From Chloroflexota bacterium (GTDB lineage: Bacteria; Chloroflexota; Dehalococcoidia; Lucifugimonadales; UBA3495), in NCBI GenBank assembly GCA_026710825.1, contig JAPOQH010000020.1:1-64000 (forward strand): 64,000 bases of DNA, read 5' to 3'. Numbering within the stretch: the stretch's first letter is position 1; every line of letters starts with the position of its first letter. A program made the position numbers and the translations under genes. The notes beneath the pieces are model-generated. The model did not search any database, was not told where the DNA came from, and worked only from the letters and a program-made list of their open reading frames with translations. Of this stretch, positions 28,450 through 50,341 are shown in pieces.

Positions 28450-31400
28450 GTGCGGGTATTGAACGATTTCCCAAGGATGATCCTTGGCCCCCTACGACGT
28501 TGGTGGGGGGCCAATTTTTTGCTGCTGGCGCTCCTCGCCGCTGCACTTGCCTTCCGCCTCTACGGCATCGATTGGGATCAGGGGCACGGGTTCCATCCAG
28601 ACGAGCGGTCTTTCTATATGCGGGCCGGCGACATGCTCTGCCTGCTCACTGCGGGACCGGATCAAGACGGCCCGCATTGCTCCGCCGCGCATCTGCGTTC
28701 GCTTCTGGCCACTGAACAATTCAACGGGATCAAACCCGGGCTTCCCGATTTTCGGACAGCCCTGTCTGCCGACCAAAGCCCCTTGAATCCCCGATGGTTC
28801 CCCTTGGGCAGCGTGTTGATCTACGCCCTCGTCCTCTTACGTTCCTTGTTGGAGCCTATCGCCGATTGGGGCGTCATGGAATTGAGATTCGTTGGGCGCA
28901 CGCTCGCGGCCCTCGCCGACGTCGGTTCGGTGGCGCTTTTGTACGTAATCGGCCGGCGCATGTTCGGTCAATGGACCGGCCTGCTCGCCGCCGCGTTCGC
29001 CACGTTCGCCGTTATACACATCCAGCACGCTCATTTCTACCGTCCGGAGCCATTCACTGTGCTCGCATCGCTGGCGGCGTTGTGGGCCATGCAGCGTTTC
29101 ATTGATTCCAAAGGTTATCGTGATGCGGCGCTGCTGGGCGCCTTGGTCGGTTTGGCCATGGCGCCCAAGGTGTCCGTCGCCCCAATCGCGGCCCCTCTCA
29201 TCCTCACGTTTATTTGGGTGGCCAAAGACCGCTGCCGGCGCAATTGGTCAGAGCTACGCCCGTGTGACATCGCCCGAGTTGCCCCGATGGCCGGGTTGGC
29301 GTGTGCCGCTGCCCTCGCCACGTTCTTCATCACTACGCCATACGCTTTCCTGGACTTCTCTAATTTCATCGGCGATATCCGGGAGCAGGCAGGCATGGCT
29401 GGTGAGGCCGGTCGTTTCCCGTTCACCTGGCAATACGCAGATACACCGGCGTTCATTTACCAAATCCAACAAACCGTGGTCTGGGGCCTCGGATTGCCCC
29501 TGGGTGTCATCACATGGTTGGCGGTGCCGGTCACTGCGTGGTTCGCGTGGCGAGGAGGATTGGCTCAACGGTCTGACCTGTTACTGCTGGCATGGGTGGT
29601 CCCCGCGTTCGTCTTCCTGGAGCTTTTCGAGGTCAAGTTCCTGCGCTATGTGTTCCCTTTGATGCCGTTCTGCATCCTCATGGCGGCCAGGATGCTGGTC
29701 GCGTTTGTGGGCTGGGCTCATGCTCGGCGGTTTGTTGCCGCCGGTTCAGACGCGCCGGTTCCCGACGACGCTCCATTTTCCGAGGAATGGCACGCCACCC
29801 CTCCCACCGTCGGCGATGACATGATATTTGACGAGCCATTGTTCGGCGATGAGCCCCTGCCCGATGCGCCGTTTTCGGAAGAATGGCATGCGACCCCGCC
29901 GACCGCTGGCGCATACATCTCCTCCTTGCCGCCGGTCCGTCCTGGCGCTGCCCGGGGTGATTTCCGTCCGGTCGTGCGTCCGGGTATCTCTGGACGGGTC
30001 GACCGATGGGCTTTTCCTGGCAGCATTGCCGTGATCGCCGTCACATTGGCGCTCACTGTTCTGTATGCCATTGCTTTCATCGGCATATACAGCCGGCCCC
30101 ACACTGCTGTCGCGGCGTCCGATTGGATTAATGCCAACGTCGAACCTCGATCGTCCATCGTGAACGGCGGCTCTTATTGGGACGAGCAGTTACCTGAACT
30201 GCGGGACTTCGACGTATGGACGTTCCCGGCGTATCACCCCGACCGCGATCCCCACAAGATCCTTGATTTGGTTGACCGCTTGGCCGATTCCGACTACGTG
30301 ATCTTCTATTCGAATCGCGCGTACGGTTCCGTCGCTCGATTGCCGGCTGAATTCCCCAAAAGTTCCGTGGTTTATCACCTCCTGTTTTCAGGTGACCTCG
30401 GTTATCGACTGGAGCGCGCGTTCACATCGTACCCCTCGTTGGCAGGTGTCCACTTGCGGGACGATCCCTACGGGCGCGCTGGACTCCCGCCGCCTGCACT
30501 GGTGCCCAACGGCGAGGATTCTCAACCCGACGGCCTGCGGCTCAACCTTGGCTACGCCGACGAAAACGTCGTCGGCTATGATCATCCCCAGGTGCTGGTA
30601 TTCAAAAATACAGAGCTATTGGACGCTCGGCTTATCCAGCAGCGCATAAACTCCGCTCTTATGTCCGCGGATTCCTCGAGTGCCCCGTTGATGTTGTCGC
30701 CATCGGCCCGGGAGGCGCAGCAATCCGGAGGCACGTGGTCTGACCTTTTCCACCGGGACGGTTGGGCTGCCAACGCGCCCTGGCTGGCTTGGCTCTTGGT
30801 CATTGAGGTCATCTGTCTAATCGCGTTCCCGTTCACGTGGTGGCTCATGCGCCCGCTGCCGGACCGGGGTTTGTTGTTCGCCCGCGTGCTCGGCTTGTTG
30901 TTGGTCGCCTGGATCACATGGTGCCTGGTGAGTTCCGGGCTGTTTCAGTTTTCACTCACCGCAATCATCCTGGCGATGGCGGTGGTTGCCGCTCCATCGG
31001 CGGTCATAGTGTGGCGCATGTGGAGGGAGATATTCTCGTGGGTTCGCGAGAAATGGCGCCTGGTGATCGCCGCCGAAGCTTTGTTTCTGCTTGCCTACCT
31101 CGCATTCCTTCTCATTCGTGCCGCCAACCCGGATCTTTGGCACGCCTGGCGCGGCGGCGAAAAGCCGATGGAACTCGCCTACTTCACTGCAGTCGCTAGG
31201 TCCTCTGTGTTGCCCCCATTCGATCCCTGGTTCAGCGGCGGCCACTTGAACTATTACTACTGGGGTTATTTCATCCTGTCTGTCCCGATGCGGCTTACCG
31301 GGATCCCGCCCGCGACTGCGTTCAACGTTGCTGTGCCCCTGATATTCGCCCTGACCGCCACCGGCGTCGGATCGCTGGTATACAACATGGTGGCGATCGC

Positions 31401-33282
31401 CCAGAGGGCTGCACCCGCCTCGAGACCGCGTTCCCGTTGGCTGCCGGCGCAGCATTCACTAGACGCTGACGCCGAGCGTGACCGTATCCGGGGTTGGTGG
31501 TTTGCGGTTCCCACCGCCTGGCGCATCCCGCGCATCGGAGCGGCTATTGCCGGAATTACCGCCGCATTGATGGCGGTGGTGTGCGCGAATCTCGATGGAT
31601 TGGTTCAAATCTCCGAGATAGCCGGACGCAAAGTCGCGGGGATGGCGGCCCCGTTGTCTGGTTTCGACTTCTGGCGCAGCAGTCGGGCTATCCCCGAAAC
31701 GCCGGAATTCGATCCATCGCCCTTGACGCCCTGGCTGCAACCTGACAACCACTTTGAAACCGCGTTCCATATTACCGAGTTCCCATTTTTCACATTTCTT
31801 TTCGCCGACCTCCATGCCCACATGATGACTATGCCATTTGCGGTCCTGTCCTTGGCGCTGGGCTTCACCTTGTTGGTGGGTTTCTCGAAGGTTGGCCCCC
31901 GCAATGTTTGGCCCTGGATCACGATAGTCACACTGGCCGTAGCCGTGGGTAGTCTTTGGGCCATCAACTCGTGGGAATATCCCGCTTACGCCTTGATCAT
32001 GCTCGGCTGTGCCGGTGCCGCCGCCTGGGTCATGACCGCAACCGCCAAGGTACGCATCTTGGTCGCCGTAGCCATGAGCACCCTGGCCCTTGGCGTCAGT
32101 TACTTGGCATTCTTGCCGTTCCACGCCGCCACCGAAACATTCGGCACAGGCATCGAATTCACCCGGTGGCGCACTCCGTTATCAAGTTATCTGCTGATCC
32201 ACGCGTTGCCGCTCGCTGCCGCCGCCGCACTGCTGTTCGCCACGTTACCCCGTGCCACCGGTCCAATTGTCGCTTGGACAAAAATGGGGCGCCCTATCGC
32301 GGCGGCGCACCAATGGCTGCTGTTATCGGCGATTTTTGGCATCATGCTTGGGTACTATTTTTGCGCCAGCGGATTCGTGACTGCAGGACTGCTCACCGTC
32401 GTTCTGGCCCTGGCCATTTGGACGCTCGCTGCGTCGTTGGTGTCCGCTGATTACCCCGAGCGCCGCGCGGATGTCATGGCCCTGTCGATGTTGGCGTTGG
32501 CGTTGGCCATCGGCATTGGAGTTGATTTCGTGCGCGTTGAAGGCGATATCGCGCGTATGAACACGCTGTTCAAGTATTACCTGGTCGCGTGGCTGCTGTT
32601 CGCGGCCGCCGGAGCCTACGGCCTGTGGAGAGCGTGGACCTACGCCAGCGCCATCGGTGGCCTCACTCGTCGTACACTTCGATGGATGGCCCTTGGTATC
32701 GTTTTGGCCGTGTTTGCCGGAACATTGGTCTATCCGGCGTTGGCTACACCCGTCCGCATCCAGGATCGGTTCAACTCCATGTCACCCACACTGGACGGGG
32801 CAGCGTGGATGCCCAACGCCGAATATCATCCGCCCGACTGGTGTGTCGGACACCCAGTGGACCCAATCGATCTGCGTTGGGACTACGAAGCCATTCGTTG
32901 GCTCCAGGGCAATGTCTCAGGTACTCCGGTCGTCCTCGAAGCCCACGGCAGCCAGTATTGCTGGAACACCCGCATTTCTCAGTACACCGGTTTGCCCACC
33001 GTCCTGGGTTGGCCATGGCATCAGCAGCAGCAGCGCAACGACGGGGAGATCGTGCGCGAGCGTGCCCGTGATGTTGCGACCATCTACGGTAGCCCCAGCC
33101 ACTCAAGAGCTTTGGAACTCCTGCAACAATACGGGGTTTCCTACATCGTGGTGGGAGATCTTGAACGCGCCTACTACGATGCCCGTGGGATCGCCAAATT
33201 CGATTCCATGGCGGAGGCAGGCAGCTTAACCCTGGAGTACGCCAACGATGGCACCCGGATTTACCGCGTCGCCGGTTCCTGA
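28450..33282 (+). CDS. Giant PMT-like glycosyltransferase / DUF2298 'YYY' membrane protein
   Basis: 1,610 aa (GTG 28450; ATG 28477 also possible). The N-terminal part, with FHPDERSFY at residues 48-55, is a GT-C dolichyl-phosphate-mannose mannosyltransferase-like (PMT_2/ArnT) domain whose acidic D-E pair is conserved, followed by many helices. Residues 438-480 form a soluble linker with a tandem repeat of APFSEEWHATPPT. The C-terminal half is DUF2298, with NYYYWGYF at 934-941, the signature found in Chloroflexota and Archaea. The whole is a predicted large envelope glycosyltransferase, substrate unknown. The internal repeat is conserved in protein but diverged in codons, so it is old and kept by selection. 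Confidence 0.85.
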   Translation: MRVLNDFPRMILGPLRRWWGANFLLLALLAAALAFRLYGIDWDQGHGFHPDERSFYMRAGDMLCLLTAGPDQDGPHCSAAHLRSLLATEQFNGIKPGLPDFRTALSADQSPLNPRWFPLGSVLIYALVLLRSLLEPIADWGVMELRFVGRTLAALADVGSVALLYVIGRRMFGQWTGLLAAAFATFAVIHIQHAHFYRPEPFTVLASLAALWAMQRFIDSKGYRDAALLGALVGLAMAPKVSVAPIAAPLILTFIWVAKDRCRRNWSELRPCDIARVAPMAGLACAAALATFFITTPYAFLDFSNFIGDIREQAGMAGEAGRFPFTWQYADTPAFIYQIQQTVVWGLGLPLGVITWLAVPVTAWFAWRGGLAQRSDLLLLAWVVPAFVFLELFEVKFLRYVFPLMPFCILMAARMLVAFVGWAHARRFVAAGSDAPVPDDAPFSEEWHATPPTVGDDMIFDEPLFGDEPLPDAPFSEEWHATPPTAGAYISSLPPVRPGAARGDFRPVVRPGISGRVDRWAFPGSIAVIAVTLALTVLYAIAFIGIYSRPHTAVAASDWINANVEPRSSIVNGGSYWDEQLPELRDFDVWTFPAYHPDRDPHKILDLVDRLADSDYVIFYSNRAYGSVARLPAEFPKSSVVYHLLFSGDLGYRLERAFTSYPSLAGVHLRDDPYGRAGLPPPALVPNGEDSQPDGLRLNLGYADENVVGYDHPQVLVFKNTELLDARLIQQRINSALMSADSSSAPLMLSPSAREAQQSGGTWSDLFHRDGWAANAPWLAWLLVIEVICLIAFPFTWWLMRPLPDRGLLFARVLGLLLVAWITWCLVSSGLFQFSLTAIILAMAVVAAPSAVIVWRMWREIFSWVREKWRLVIAAEALFLLAYLAFLLIRAANPDLWHAWRGGEKPMELAYFTAVARSSVLPPFDPWFSGGHLNYYYWGYFILSVPMRLTGIPPATAFNVAVPLIFALTATGVGSLVYNMVAIAQRAAPASRPRSRWLPAQHSLDADAERDRIRGWWFAVPTAWRIPRIGAAIAGITAALMAVVCANLDGLVQISEIAGRKVAGMAAPLSGFDFWRSSRAIPETPEFDPSPLTPWLQPDNHFETAFHITEFPFFTFLFADLHAHMMTMPFAVLSLALGFTLLVGFSKVGPRNVWPWITIVTLAVAVGSLWAINSWEYPAYALIMLGCAGAAAWVMTATAKVRILVAVAMSTLALGVSYLAFLPFHAATETFGTGIEFTRWRTPLSSYLLIHALPLAAAAALLFATLPRATGPIVAWTKMGRPIAAAHQWLLLSAIFGIMLGYYFCASGFVTAGLLTVVLALAIWTLAASLVSADYPERRADVMALSMLALALAIGIGVDFVRVEGDIARMNTLFKYYLVAWLLFAAAGAYGLWRAWTYASAIGGLTRRTLRWMALGIVLAVFAGTLVYPALATPVRIQDRFNSMSPTLDGAAWMPNAEYHPPDWCVGHPVDPIDLRWDYEAIRWLQGNVSGTPVVLEAHGSQYCWNTRISQYTGLPTVLGWPWHQQQQRNDGEIVRERARDVATIYGSPSHSRALELLQQYGVSYIVVGDLERAYYDARGIAKFDSMAEAGSLTLEYANDGTRIYRVAGS

Positions 33283-34450: not shown

Positions 34451-34483
34451 TAATCGGGGCGGGTCTCGGACCCGCCCCGATTA
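34451..34483. terminator. Bidirectional terminator between Gfo/Idh gene and UGSC gene
   Basis: A perfect 14-bp stem, TAATCGGGGCGGGT with ACCCGCCCCGATTA, around CTCGG. It serves the plus-strand gene ending at 34430 and the minus-strand gene ending at 34506. Confidence 0.85.
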
Positions 34484-34505
34484 GCTTCATTTGCCCGTCA
34501 GACGG

Positions 34506-35048
34506 TTACCTGTCCACCAGGCACTCCATCACTTGCGGGGCCGCGGTTGCTGCCCGTTCGGCCAACTCGGAATCGCTCAGCGTAACGATCGGATGCTCGA
34601 TGATTGCCAGACCATATTCCGGGTCTCCGCGCATCCGGGACATCGCGCGCGCCTGGCTGATGAAGGGCCGCGTAGTCAAAACGGTGGACGGGATGCCCAG
34701 GAGTTCGGTTTCCATTGCGTCGTGCACACTGCACGCCGTGCAGGACCCTCATTCAGCCGTGGCATGGATCGCAACGTCGATGCTCTGCGCTGTTCGTTGC
34801 AGGTCCTCGATCCGGGCCGGCCATTGCCAACCGCCCTTGTTGTGCTCAACCGTTCCCTTGATGTCGTAGCGCTCACCGATGATGGCCGCGACCCGTCTCA
34901 ACAGGTCCTCAGAGTGAGGTTTGTTGTTGGCGAACAGGCCAATCACCTTGCCGTCCAACGTGGCTGGCCGTTGAGCCAGCCGCGCTGGCGCCTGCGGCCC
35001 GTCATCTCGCGGATCCAGGGTGATCACTGGGCTTCGTTGTGTTGTCAT
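34506..35048 (-). CDS. UGSC family selenoprotein (in-frame UGA)
   Basis: 180 residues when read through TGA 34751-34749. ATG 35048 follows GGAGG at 7 nt. The N-terminal part has LDGKVIGLFANNKPHSEDLL and the helix before the TGA ends IHATAE. The next codons read GSC-TAC-SVHDAME, giving the signature U100-G-S-C103 with an extra Cys106. The part after the TGA (TELLGIPSTVLTTRPFISQA to MECLVDR) has no start of its own. UGSC proteins are a known selenoprotein family with a predicted thiol/selenol redox role; function is uncharacterised. It lies in a run of minus-strand genes behind a conserved partner (35087-36109). Confidence 0.9.
34721..34735 (-). promoter_or_regulatory. Candidate SECIS element of the UGSC gene
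   Basis: On the minus strand CGTGCA pairs with TGCACG around the loop GTG (six pairs). The loop starts 19 nt after the UGA and its first base is G. An alternative hairpin, CTGCAC-GGC-GTGCAG, shares bases with it. Either matches a small bacterial SECIS. Confidence 0.55.
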
Positions 35049-35086
35049 CTCTGAACCTCCATATTGCTTCGGGAACTTGAACCGCG

Positions 35087-36109
35087 TCAGGGCGTGTTCA
35101 CGGGCCGCGTGACGGACCGACTGCTGCCCCAAGTGCTGATCAGACTAACGAATCCCCCTGCCATTCCCCCGCCCGGTAGCACCGTGATCCGGTCGGCATC
35201 TGCGACTACAGGTACCATCCGATCATGATCCAACTCGGATGCCATACGATGCCAGCGGATCCACTCGGCGGCGGGCAGTTGCGCTTTATCATGCAGGAAT
35301 TCTGCCACCTGCCTCCTGGACCAGCCGGCCTCAGCGATGTGCAGCATCGCCTCCGGGCTGATCACGCAGATCACCTCCGGCATGCCGGGCCCAAATGCCA
35401 GCATGGCGTGGGCTACCGTGGTCAGAAAATCGGCCGGATTCCGATCTCCATGCAGTGTAACTTGCAGCGGCGCCAGCGTCGCGTACGCGGTGACTGTCGT
35501 GGCATCGTCGCCGTAACCCAACTCCGACGTTAACGATGGCCACGGACTGACAGCGAGGTTTTCCGGAAAACAGAACGTGATCTTCCCCGGATGTCCGAAC
35601 GTGCTGTTGTCCATCACCACCGGCACCGAGCCGTAGTAATTCGCTTTGAACAGGTTCACCGCGCGACCGATGGCCGCATTTGGTCGACCCCCGTTGCCCA
35701 TCATTTCCACGCCGGCATTCATGCCGATCTTGTCCGCGTACGGACCGCTTACGACCGTAAGCACCGTGACGCCGTTGGTGGATGTGCTGCTTGCGTGCAG
35801 GTTGAACGAACGGTCCGTTATCGCCGATAACGACGCCAGCACCACCGTGAAGTGTTCCGGGAGGCAGCCCGCCATCACAGCGTTCACCGCTGCCTTGCCC
35901 GCGGTGAACCGTTTCTGCCTGATCACCTCGGTTCCCAGGTCATGGTCAGCGGAAACGCCAGCAAAGTCCAGCATTGCCTGGACCCTGTCCGGGGTCGGCG
36001 GAACGATCGGTAACCCATCGGTCAGGCCGTGATCAAAAAAATAATCCTGGGCCGCGCCCCAATCCTGAAATTCCAGGTGTCCGCCGGAGTTGGTATCGGT
36101 TGTTGTCAT
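35087..36109 (-). CDS. Conserved protein adjacent to the UGSC selenoprotein
   Basis: 340 aa, ATG 36109. It begins LEFQDWGAAQDYFFDHGLTDGLPIVPPT and contains repeated Gly-rich stretches (NGGRPNAAIGRAVNL, LPGGGMAGGF). No transmembrane segment and no recognised cofactor motif are seen. It contains few Cys residues (AGC, FCF, VIC), none in a CxxC. It lies 38 nt upstream of the UGSC ATG and 44 nt after the DnaC-like gene, in the same direction, so is likely cotranscribed with UGSC. It may work with it. I do not recognise a function. Confidence 0.75.
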   Translation of the reverse strand: MTTTDTNSGGHLEFQDWGAAQDYFFDHGLTDGLPIVPPTPDRVQAMLDFAGVSADHDLGTEVIRQKRFTAGKAAVNAVMAGCLPEHFTVVLASLSAITDRSFNLHASSTSTNGVTVLTVVSGPYADKIGMNAGVEMMGNGGRPNAAIGRAVNLFKANYYGSVPVVMDNSTFGHPGKITFCFPENLAVSPWPSLTSELGYGDDATTVTAYATLAPLQVTLHGDRNPADFLTTVAHAMLAFGPGMPEVICVISPEAMLHIAEAGWSRRQVAEFLHDKAQLPAAEWIRWHRMASELDHDRMVPVVADADRITVLPGGGMAGGFVSLISTWGSSRSVTRPVNTP

Positions 36110-36153: not shown

Positions 36154-37557
36154 TTACCTGCGGCCGCCCTGCCGGTAGTCAGGCGCTTCTATTGGCAACT
36201 CTGTCACTACCAGCGGGTCCTGCAATCGCGACGCGATCCTCGGTCTAGTTGCAGCGATAGATTCTACCTGATGCGACGTGGTAATGATGGTGGGCAAGCG
36301 TTCCTCGTACCGGTATCCCATTATCTGAAACAACTTGTCCTCGGCGAACGGCGTGCTTCGTTCGGCTCCCATGTCATCCAGTACTAGCACATTCGCCGTC
36401 CTGATGCGGTCCAGCAGGTCGTCGTGAGTAACCGGACTGTCGGGGGCAAAGGTCGCCCGGAGGTAGTCCAACAGGTCTGCTACCGTGGCAAAGAATACCT
36501 CATCTCCCCGATCCTCTCGTTCAGCCGCCGTAGCCACCGCCAAGTGCGTTTTCCCAACCCCGTAGGGTCCGTGCAAACTGAGCCACCCGTCTGGATTTTC
36601 GGCCCAGCGCTGGACGTACGACTTCGCGGACTTCAGGCTCCGGACTTGGTGCTCGGCTAACCCACCGTTCCCGTGCGGCTTGAACGCGTCAAACGTCATC
36701 CGCTGCCTCATGTTGGGGGGAATCGCTCCCACGCTTCGACCTGATATCCCGCCAACCCTTCCCAACCGACATAGCGAGCCAAACCCGTCGGCTGAGTCCA
36801 GTCGTGTCCTGAGGAAATCGTCCAGGTGGTTCGGGTCCCCGCGCAGCGTGATCACTGTGGGCAATCGTTGCGAGTGCCGCCACGCCAAAAGCTGAAACAG
36901 TCGCTCTTGGCCCCATGGGCTGGACGGGCGAGACGGTACATCGTCCAGCACCAGCAGTTCCGCCTCCCGCACTTGGTCAAAGAGATCGACGAATCCCGCC
37001 TCGGAGTCATCGTCAAACCCTCCGCGCAAGTAGTCCAGCAGGTCCGTCGACGTGATGAACAGCGCCGCTTTGCCTTCCTGGATGCGTTGGTTGACTATCG
37101 CGGCGGCCAGGTAGGTTTTCCCGCTGCCGCTGGGACCCACGAATGTGATCCAGCCCATCGGATCCCGGGCGTATTTTTTGGCTGCATCAAACGCGCTGTT
37201 GTATGCAGACTCGTTGACGGATGCCCCGATCGGCCCGCTCGAGCTGGCGTTCGCGAATGTGCATTGGCGCAGGGCTCCTAGATTGCTGTATCGTTCGAGG
37301 GCTTCGACGCGACGCTCCCGGTCTGCATCAGACTCCTGGCACACGCATGGCGAAACCTTGCCAAAATCAGGATGCTCTACCGGTGCCGAGGATGCCAGCC
37401 ATCCGGTTCCCGCGCAAATGCTGCAACTATGCGTCGCCGTGCTCACCTGCAGCGGCGTCGGGTTCCCAGGGTAACCGTCCATGTCGGCGTCGGTAACTCT
37501 CCAGGTACCCCGTGCGGCTATCCTCCGCAGGATCGTGCCCAGGCTCTCCATCGTCAT
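36154..37557 (-). CDS. Tandem DnaC/IstB-like AAA+ protein with two ATPase domains
   Basis: 467 aa. A zinc-binding segment with C45, C48, C71 and C73 precedes two AAA+ ATPase domains. Domain 1 has Walker A GPSGSGKT (141-148) and Walker B LLVLDDVP (201-208). Domain 2 has Walker A GPYGVGKT (330-337) and Walker B VLVLDDMG (390-397), with RIASRLQDP (440-448) as arginine finger. In domain 1 that element is degenerate (LRTRLDS). DnaC-type loaders have one AAA+ domain; here there are two. Position after dnaD and dnaB supports helicase loading at replication start. It overlaps dnaD by 131 nt. Confidence 0.82.
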   Translation of the reverse strand: MTMESLGTILRRIAARGTWRVTDADMDGYPGNPTPLQVSTATHSCSICAGTGWLASSAPVEHPDFGKVSPCVCQESDADRERRVEALERYSNLGALRQCTFANASSSGPIGASVNESAYNSAFDAAKKYARDPMGWITFVGPSGSGKTYLAAAIVNQRIQEGKAALFITSTDLLDYLRGGFDDDSEAGFVDLFDQVREAELLVLDDVPSRPSSPWGQERLFQLLAWRHSQRLPTVITLRGDPNHLDDFLRTRLDSADGFGSLCRLGRVGGISGRSVGAIPPNMRQRMTFDAFKPHGNGGLAEHQVRSLKSAKSYVQRWAENPDGWLSLHGPYGVGKTHLAVATAAEREDRGDEVFFATVADLLDYLRATFAPDSPVTHDDLLDRIRTANVLVLDDMGAERSTPFAEDKLFQIMGYRYEERLPTIITTSHQVESIAATRPRIASRLQDPLVVTELPIEAPDYRQGGRR

Positions 37558-49960: not shown

Positions 49961-50029
49961 AAAAAACAAAAAGTGGCCGAGCACCTCCCTTTGACTGCAG
50001 CCTGGGGGCGTATCGTCGGGATTGGCTCA

Positions 50030-50154
50030 GGCCAGGCACTCCCACGGCACCCGCGGGACATCGCTTACCGTTGCTGCCGTCAAGCCCTGGCGGGGTTCAC
50101 GAGCCTGCGCCGCGTGGGACCCGGCCGTCAGCGCCATTCCCTGGGAAATTGGCC
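50030..50154 (-). ncRNA. ffs: Signal recognition particle RNA (small bacterial type)
   Basis: On the minus strand GAACCCCGCCAGGGCTTGAC followed by GGCAGCAACGGTAAGC is the domain IV signature: CAGG, a short stem (GCT/GGC), apical loop TGAC, then AGCA. The outer parts pair: GGCCA plus TTCCCA at the 5' end with TGGGAG and TGGCC at the 3' end, giving about 125 nt. UGAC replaces the commonest GGAA loop; this variant occurs in other bacteria. The exact ends are estimated from the pairing. Confidence 0.85.
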
Positions 50155-50188
50155 CTTGCGCCTTGCCGAGGGGAGGGATTCCACCCCG

Positions 50189-50341
50189 CTATGGCGGGTT
50201 GCGGGTATAGGGCACCGCCAGCTCCCCGTGTAGCACGACCACCAATTCATGGTATGCGGGCTTTGCCGAGGTGTCAATGAACAGTTCCGCACGCTCGAGC
50301 GTAAGCCGAACTTTTCCGAGTGATGGTCGTCCTGCCGTCAC
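50189..50341 (-). CDS. Possible 50-residue protein between monooxygenase 3 and the SRP RNA
   Basis: GTG 50341, 50 aa. LTLERAELFIDTSAKPAYHE followed by LVVVLHGELAVPY looks protein-like but matches nothing I know, and no downstream gene in the frame supports it. It lies just after the monooxygenase stop and could be a cotranscribed small gene or just an open frame. Confidence 0.25.
   Translation of the reverse strand: MTAGRPSLGKVRLTLERAELFIDTSAKPAYHELVVVLHGELAVPYTRNPP

Follow-up and report, generated by a model that had tools for sequence, protein, structure and literature searches.

Does the in-frame TGA at 34751-34749 on the minus strand of the 64,000-nucleotide stretch of Chloroflexota DNA analysed here (the window) stand for selenocysteine (Sec), and what kind of protein would be built around it? 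The frame in question opens with an ATG at 35048 (minus strand), with GGAGG at 35060-35056 upstream, and runs to 34506 with this TGA as its only one; when read through, it encodes 180 residues. The codons after the TGA are GGG TCC TGC ACG GCG TGC (G S C T A C), as an earlier sequence-only reading had reported at the same coordinates.

34506..35048, minus strand: gene for a UGSC-family selenoprotein of 180 aa, Sec at residue 100 (read-through translation; PF24696; both halves conserved)
34508-34506, minus strand: TAA stop of the UGSC gene
34749..34751, minus strand: UGA codon, very probably read as Sec, residue 100 (TGA in 80/80 relatives, the best 80 of at least 577, and in 9/9 own-genome copies)
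35056..35060, minus strand: GGAGG ahead of the UGSC start, a likely ribosome-binding site (direct sequence reading)

Family membership

The earlier proposal of a UGSC-family selenoprotein split by a UGA is borne out by the Pfam profile PF24696, which matches residues 1-99 alone at 4.7e-12, residues 101-180 alone at 1e-21, and the joined protein at 4.3e-42; the C-terminal half, on whose alignment to UGSC proteins that proposal had been staked, thus aligns by itself, and on these profile scores a chance match of both halves is excluded. The two halves had also been expected to appear as two ORFs. Each does match UGSC alone, but the listed ORF at 34498-34752 lies in a different reading frame from the second half, which has no usual start right after the TGA, the first in-frame one being, by eye, a GTG at residue 108.

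The 180-aa protein scores 144.6 bits against PF24696 (cut-off, 25) over profile positions 3 to 171 of 172, and it contains the U/C-G-S-C motif as U100 G101 S102 C103. Its score against the NCBIfam equivalog NF041046 (UGSC_fam) is 112.2 bits with C put for U, below the cut-off of 125, so that the protein fits the Pfam family but, strictly taken, cannot carry the name of the NCBI subgroup. The window gene is therefore an additional member of an already known family. UGSC-containing selenoproteins, with 255 sequences in the fifth row of Table 2, are given among the most abundant selenoproteins of the ocean survey GOS in the relevant passages of that report (PMC2398784), and the sections of a 2026 review that deal with such selenoproteins describe their functions as largely uncharacterized (PMC13188914).

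Selenocysteine insertion

Relatives were sought in species genomes with a query alignment that begins after the Sec position, so that the Sec codon was not selected for, and with a search pattern that demanded Cys103, Cys106, and Ser-Val-His, so that the genome loci, the best 80 of at least 577 confirmed relatives, represent one subgroup. All of these 80 loci have TGA at the Sec position. One in-frame TGA is likewise present within 74 of the 77 Pfam-UGSC matches that 32 of the 301 phylum genomes yielded, in 111 of the 113 matches from 14 genomes of the genus, where each genome holds 6 to 10, and in all nine copies of the own genome. Plasmid copies carry Cys in 11 cases and TGA in 3, a count that leaves out two further UGSC-like copies. 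Within the genus, G308:C45:46594-47082 is a stop-less UGSC match, possibly reflecting a Sec-to-Cys change.

In five close orthologues (L062, L063, L064, L066, and L067), synonymous codon differences outnumber nonsynonymous ones in both halves, the two halves of L062 giving 46 to 10 and 31 to 7. The distant orthologues L068 and L069 show the same excess in the C-terminal half (36 to 19 and 35 to 21), whereas in their N-terminal half nonsynonymous differences prevail (31 synonymous to 40 and 29 to 44). The own genome encodes a tRNA-Sec, SelA (548 bits), SelB (366 bits), and SelD (377 bits), and SelD itself contains one TGA.

Bacterial SECIS elements carry GU in an apical loop shortly after the UGA, and the window gene has such a GU-loop hairpin, CGUGCA-GUG-UGCACG, starting 13 bases 3' of its UGA.

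34721..34735, minus strand: putative bacterial SECIS hairpin, 6-bp stem CGUGCA/UGCACG, GUG loop at 34729-34727 (pair counts, synonymous recoding)

Pairing was counted in alignment A3, which covers 56 of 118 loci (9/9 own, 27/29 phylum, and 20/80 genome), over seven positions, of which the seventh, outer one is unpaired in the window gene. Among 55 distinct sequences, 88.1% of the cells are paired, compared with 73.1 in shuffles and 64.2 in the best slid register, and 39 cells are changed on both sides, compared with 7.8 in shuffles; both-side change occurs in five of the hairpin pairs, a number reached by 71 of 500 shuffles. The observed 6.16 pairs of 7 exceed the mean of each of 500 synonymous recodings (at most 4.65). 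The Ser107 codon, which positions GU within the loop, is AGT in 80/80 loci (best 80 of at least 577), although those frames use AGT for 10% of their serines. The 11 Cys-type genes retain a mean of 3.9 of 6 pairs, against 5.7 for the Sec forms, with the exception of one fully paired gene and three with 5 of 6. Single-sequence RNA folding 3' of the UGA gave no signal (z of -0.5, 0.1, and 0.4), folding of 88 sequences against synonymous recoding gave a mean z of -0.92, with 16% at p <= 0.05, and Rfam at gathering scores had no match at the UGSC locus; the evidence for the hairpin comes from fixed-position pairing, covariation, and codon usage.

Since the conservation of the TGA, the hairpin, the conserved halves, the Sec machinery, and all nine own-genome copies agree, the TGA is very probably read as Sec, which we consider established at sequence level; the recoding would be SelB-dependent, via the hairpin directly downstream. 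A true stop, in a pseudogene or through a sequencing error, could claim the in-frame TGA and the N-terminal nonsynonymous excess against L068 and L069, but is very nearly out of the question, as the TGA is common to 80/80 (best 80 of at least 577) and 111/113 homologues, synonymous differences are in excess in both halves of the five close orthologues and after the TGA in the two distant ones, and the sequence beyond the conserved TGA is itself conserved.

Cysteines downstream of the Sec codon

34740..34742, minus strand: Cys103, the Cys of the UxxC pair (all rows of alignments A1 and A4)
34731..34733, minus strand: Cys106, variable across the family (10/21 A1 rows)

The rows of A1 and A4 were selected by motifs that already contain Cys103; this residue is also found in 11 rows printed under a laxer motif. 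Cys106 was not required in A1, and among its 21 rows, window gene included, the column holds 10 Cys and otherwise Ala, Ser, Gly, or Trp, while its invariance in A4 follows from a selection pattern that required it. The extended signature UGSCTAC is thus present in the window gene as claimed but is not family-wide, and the aligned rows give no support for counting Cys106 in a defining motif. With Cys106 the window gene nevertheless reads UxxCxxC, the motif given for GrdB in the part of the review that covers this protein (PMC13188914), and it was this likeness that prompted a comparison of UGSC with GrdB.

Relationship to GrdB and PrdB

When the UGSC profile was compared by hhalign with seven PF07355 proteins of the phylum, it aligned at 90.9% (E, 1.1e-6); with 16 PrdB/GrdB proteins the values were 94.2%, E 1.1e-7, and a score of 55.1, with Sec on Sec. 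The score was 40.6 when Cys was masked on both sides. As controls, 60 column shuffles scored at most 19.5, the reversed profile 12.1, a TrxA-like profile 17.2, and 12 other ORF clusters at most 20.0, the last being from the same loci as UGSC and including the partner described below and some probable shadow frames; GrdB against PrdB, the positive control, scored 170. A single true GrdB, L146, carries much of the homology signal: by itself it gives 56.1, and the remaining 15 proteins give 38.9 and 70%. In a direct profile search, PF07355 was not listed for UGSC at E up to 10. The window protein has 80 residues after Sec, and a table on Clostridium sticklandii gives 86 for GrdB and 90 for PrdB (PMC3091704). 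According to these profile comparisons, UGSC looks like a remote, shorter homologue of GrdB and PrdB, which are the Sec-containing subunits of the reductases for glycine and D-proline. This relationship is unnamed in the accessible portions of the open-access literature mentioning UGSC and selenoprotein.

The pyruvoyl-type subunit PF09338 had no match in the own genome (92% complete). This genome has a separate PrdB-like selenoprotein gene on contig C9 (L061:1432-2637) with an in-frame TGA and the motif UPLC, adjoining, by eye, a zinc-type alcohol dehydrogenase-like ORF. A PDB sequence search with this PrdB-like protein returned nothing significant, and a phosphate-loop protein found at 0.0071 with the PrdB profile was taken as chance.

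The partner gene

35087..36109, minus strand: partner gene, 340 aa, 38 nt before the UGSC start (homologues at related loci; AF2 pLDDT 91.5)

Sequence searches of Pfam, NCBIfam, PHROGs, and PDB found no relative of this protein; when 35 members were searched against Pfam, eight families appeared with one member each (best E, 0.033), which we took as chance. Homologues are present at 74 of the 80 genome loci (best 80 of at least 577 relatives), at 27 of 29 phylum loci, and at all nine own-genome loci, in one of which (C48) the partner is fused to UGSC. Of the six genome loci where it was unseen, L084 and L118 have less than 300 bases of sequence ahead of the Sec codon, while at L063, L113, L126, and L135 it was not found despite upstream room. 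The partner adjoins UGSC in all nine of the UGSC plasmid records examined (of 10 found), which come from haloarchaea, Arthrobacter, Embleya, Acidovorax, and Paracoccus; conversely, seven of nine partner-selected plasmid records examined (of 24 found) have a UGSC match. The haloarchaeal plasmids L190 and L196 each carry one Cys-type UGSC gene with a partner gene on either side, and L202 also has two partner copies.

Invariant residues of the partner include D31, G32, P34, N76, G81, C82, G148, and R149. The best PDB matches to its AlphaFold2 (AF2) model are class I fumarases at a TM of 0.27, which is very weak. A relationship of the partner to GrdE/PrdA was rejected, its profile score of 13.9 lying below shuffles of up to 19.1. 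UGSC is thus associated with a partner whose gene adjoins its own or is fused with it, and with this partner it would form a complex.

Genomic context

34451..34483, no strand assigned: perfect inverted repeat of 15 bp resembling an intrinsic terminator, beyond the 3' end of the UGSC gene

The inverted repeat closes the partner-UGSC pair and faces a GFO/IDH/MocA gene. The pair comes after a DnaC/IstB-like gene and, by eye, after the genes of DnaB and the ribosomal protein L9. In L062, L064, L066, and L067 (Dehalococcoidia, Chloroflexi, and SAR202 records), DnaB, the DnaC-like protein, the partner, and the GFO protein are also encoded together, for which reason we place the host in that group. 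In the DnaC/IstB-like ATPase (36154-37557, minus strand, 467 aa), two stretches match the same family. The window also holds a bacterial large SRP RNA (49977-50238, minus strand, 143 bits) and a 1610-aa membrane protein (28450-33282, plus strand), seemingly composed, by eye, of two glycosyltransferase-like halves. Viral contigs gave 16 pattern matches, among them no relative.

In the plasmids of Paracoccus (L195) and Acidovorax (L189), Sec-type UGSC is annotated as two or as one truncated hypothetical protein; these two records show how annotation can miss a Sec UGSC. The Paracoccus plasmid carries selA and selB within about 8 kb.

Proposed reaction and alternatives

In GrdB reduction, as laid out in the pertinent part of the C. 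sticklandii report, electrons pass from NADPH via thioredoxin reductase and thioredoxin to GrdA (PMC3091704). A TrxB-like ORF was found at 8 of 18 plasmid loci and at 1 of 59 control loci, although the controls, used for both TrxB and TrxA, are unmatched loci from other taxa, and the TrxB query was taken from one of the eight loci counted, not all of which have the gene adjacent. Arthrobacter has the order trxB-trxA-partner-UGSC, in Roseovarius trxB comes after UGSC, and in Variovorax it precedes the partner with two genes between. TrxB-like ORFs lie near 1 of 80 genome loci (best 80 of at least 577), 1 of 29 phylum loci, and none of the nine own loci; TrxA-like ORFs were counted at 1 of 18 plasmid, 7 of 80 genome (best 80 of at least 577), and 2 of 59 control loci. 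Plasmid neighbours further include parts of TRAP/TTT (carboxylate-type) transporters, CoA-transferases, CoA lyases, and PEP mutase family proteins, and those in the own genome are mixed (flavin monooxygenases, an enolase-family gene, dehydrogenases, and peptide transporters).

From the GrdB electron chain together with the trxB and the carboxylate- and CoA-related neighbours, we propose that UGSC is a genuine Sec protein, related to GrdB/PrdB, that acts with its partner as a thioredoxin-fed reductase of small organic acids, a reading to which we assign a probability of roughly 60%. We infer the complex, the bond cleavage, the donor, and the substrate as follows. A small organic acid or a derivative would bind between UGSC and the partner, where the selenolate would attack it and bring about reductive cleavage of a C-N, C-S, C-O, or C-halogen bond; Cys103 would resolve the Se adduct as a selenylsulfide, which thioredoxin or a similar donor would re-reduce, and UGSC paralogues would vary in substrate.

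UGSC and its partner might instead constitute a non-redox isomerase, lyase, or racemase, in which Sec or Cys serves as nucleophile or acid-base group. Such an enzyme would suit the lyases and CoA-transferases among the plasmid neighbours and the very weak fumarase matches of the partner (TM 0.27), but we deem it unlikely in view of the UxxC pair, present instead of a single Cys, and the TrxB-like ORFs near isolate copies; moreover, frames from five loci of PF01177 (Asp/Glu racemase) scored 12.7 to 16.6, which is noise, these being single sequences of which two are, by eye, not racemases.

More improbable still is a generic thiol-selenol oxidoreductase of thioredoxin fold acting on peroxides or disulfides, as the UxxC motif might suggest. 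The AF2 model of UGSC (pLDDT 90.1) has the order E-H-E-H-E-H-E-H-E-H, that is, five alternating strand-helix units; the 50 PDB matches listed in a structure search are weak and comprise flavodoxin-like and other alpha/beta folds, with no thioredoxin fold among them by description; and the TrxA-like profile score of 17.2 is at noise level. PDB sequence searches with UGSC gave nothing significant. The fold of UGSC is predicted to be Rossmann-like, alpha/beta, with the Sec of the UxxC pair presumably at the start of a helix, and the "likely Trx-like fold" suggested in the UGSC passages of the 2008 survey (PMC2398784) is not supported by the modelled topology and the PDB matches.

Returning to the proposed thioredoxin-fed reductase, we would tentatively go further, at somewhat less than even odds, and regard UGSC plus partner as a third, unrecognised branch of GrdB/PrdB, namely, a pyruvoyl-free two-protein enzyme that cleaves varied small organic acids reductively and reaches haloarchaea with Cys for Sec. 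Through the probable GrdB/PrdB link and the near-constant partner, the UGSC family gains a testable function and a concrete candidate enzyme complex.

Comparison with known systems

UGSC appears to share with GrdB/PrdB (PF07355) a distant homology at profile level that aligns Sec with Sec, the UxxC, E..GIP, and HP-like motifs, and a similar distance from Sec to the C terminus. It differs in having only 180 aa, no direct PF07355 match, and another partner protein, and no pyruvoyl subunit (GrdE/PrdA) was found with it. With the UGSC family as defined by PF24696 and the corresponding passages of the 2008 survey (PMC2398784), the window protein agrees in its near full-length profile match, the U-G-S-C motif, the prevalence of Sec in the phylum, and the occurrence of fused forms, whereas it departs from that description in scoring below the NF041046 cut-off, in its predicted Rossmann-like rather than the suggested Trx-like fold, and in its adjacent partner gene. 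The domain Unknown_1, fused to UGSC in the same passages (PMC2398784), perhaps equals the partner domain fused in C48, although most of the present loci have the partner as a gene of its own next to UGSC.
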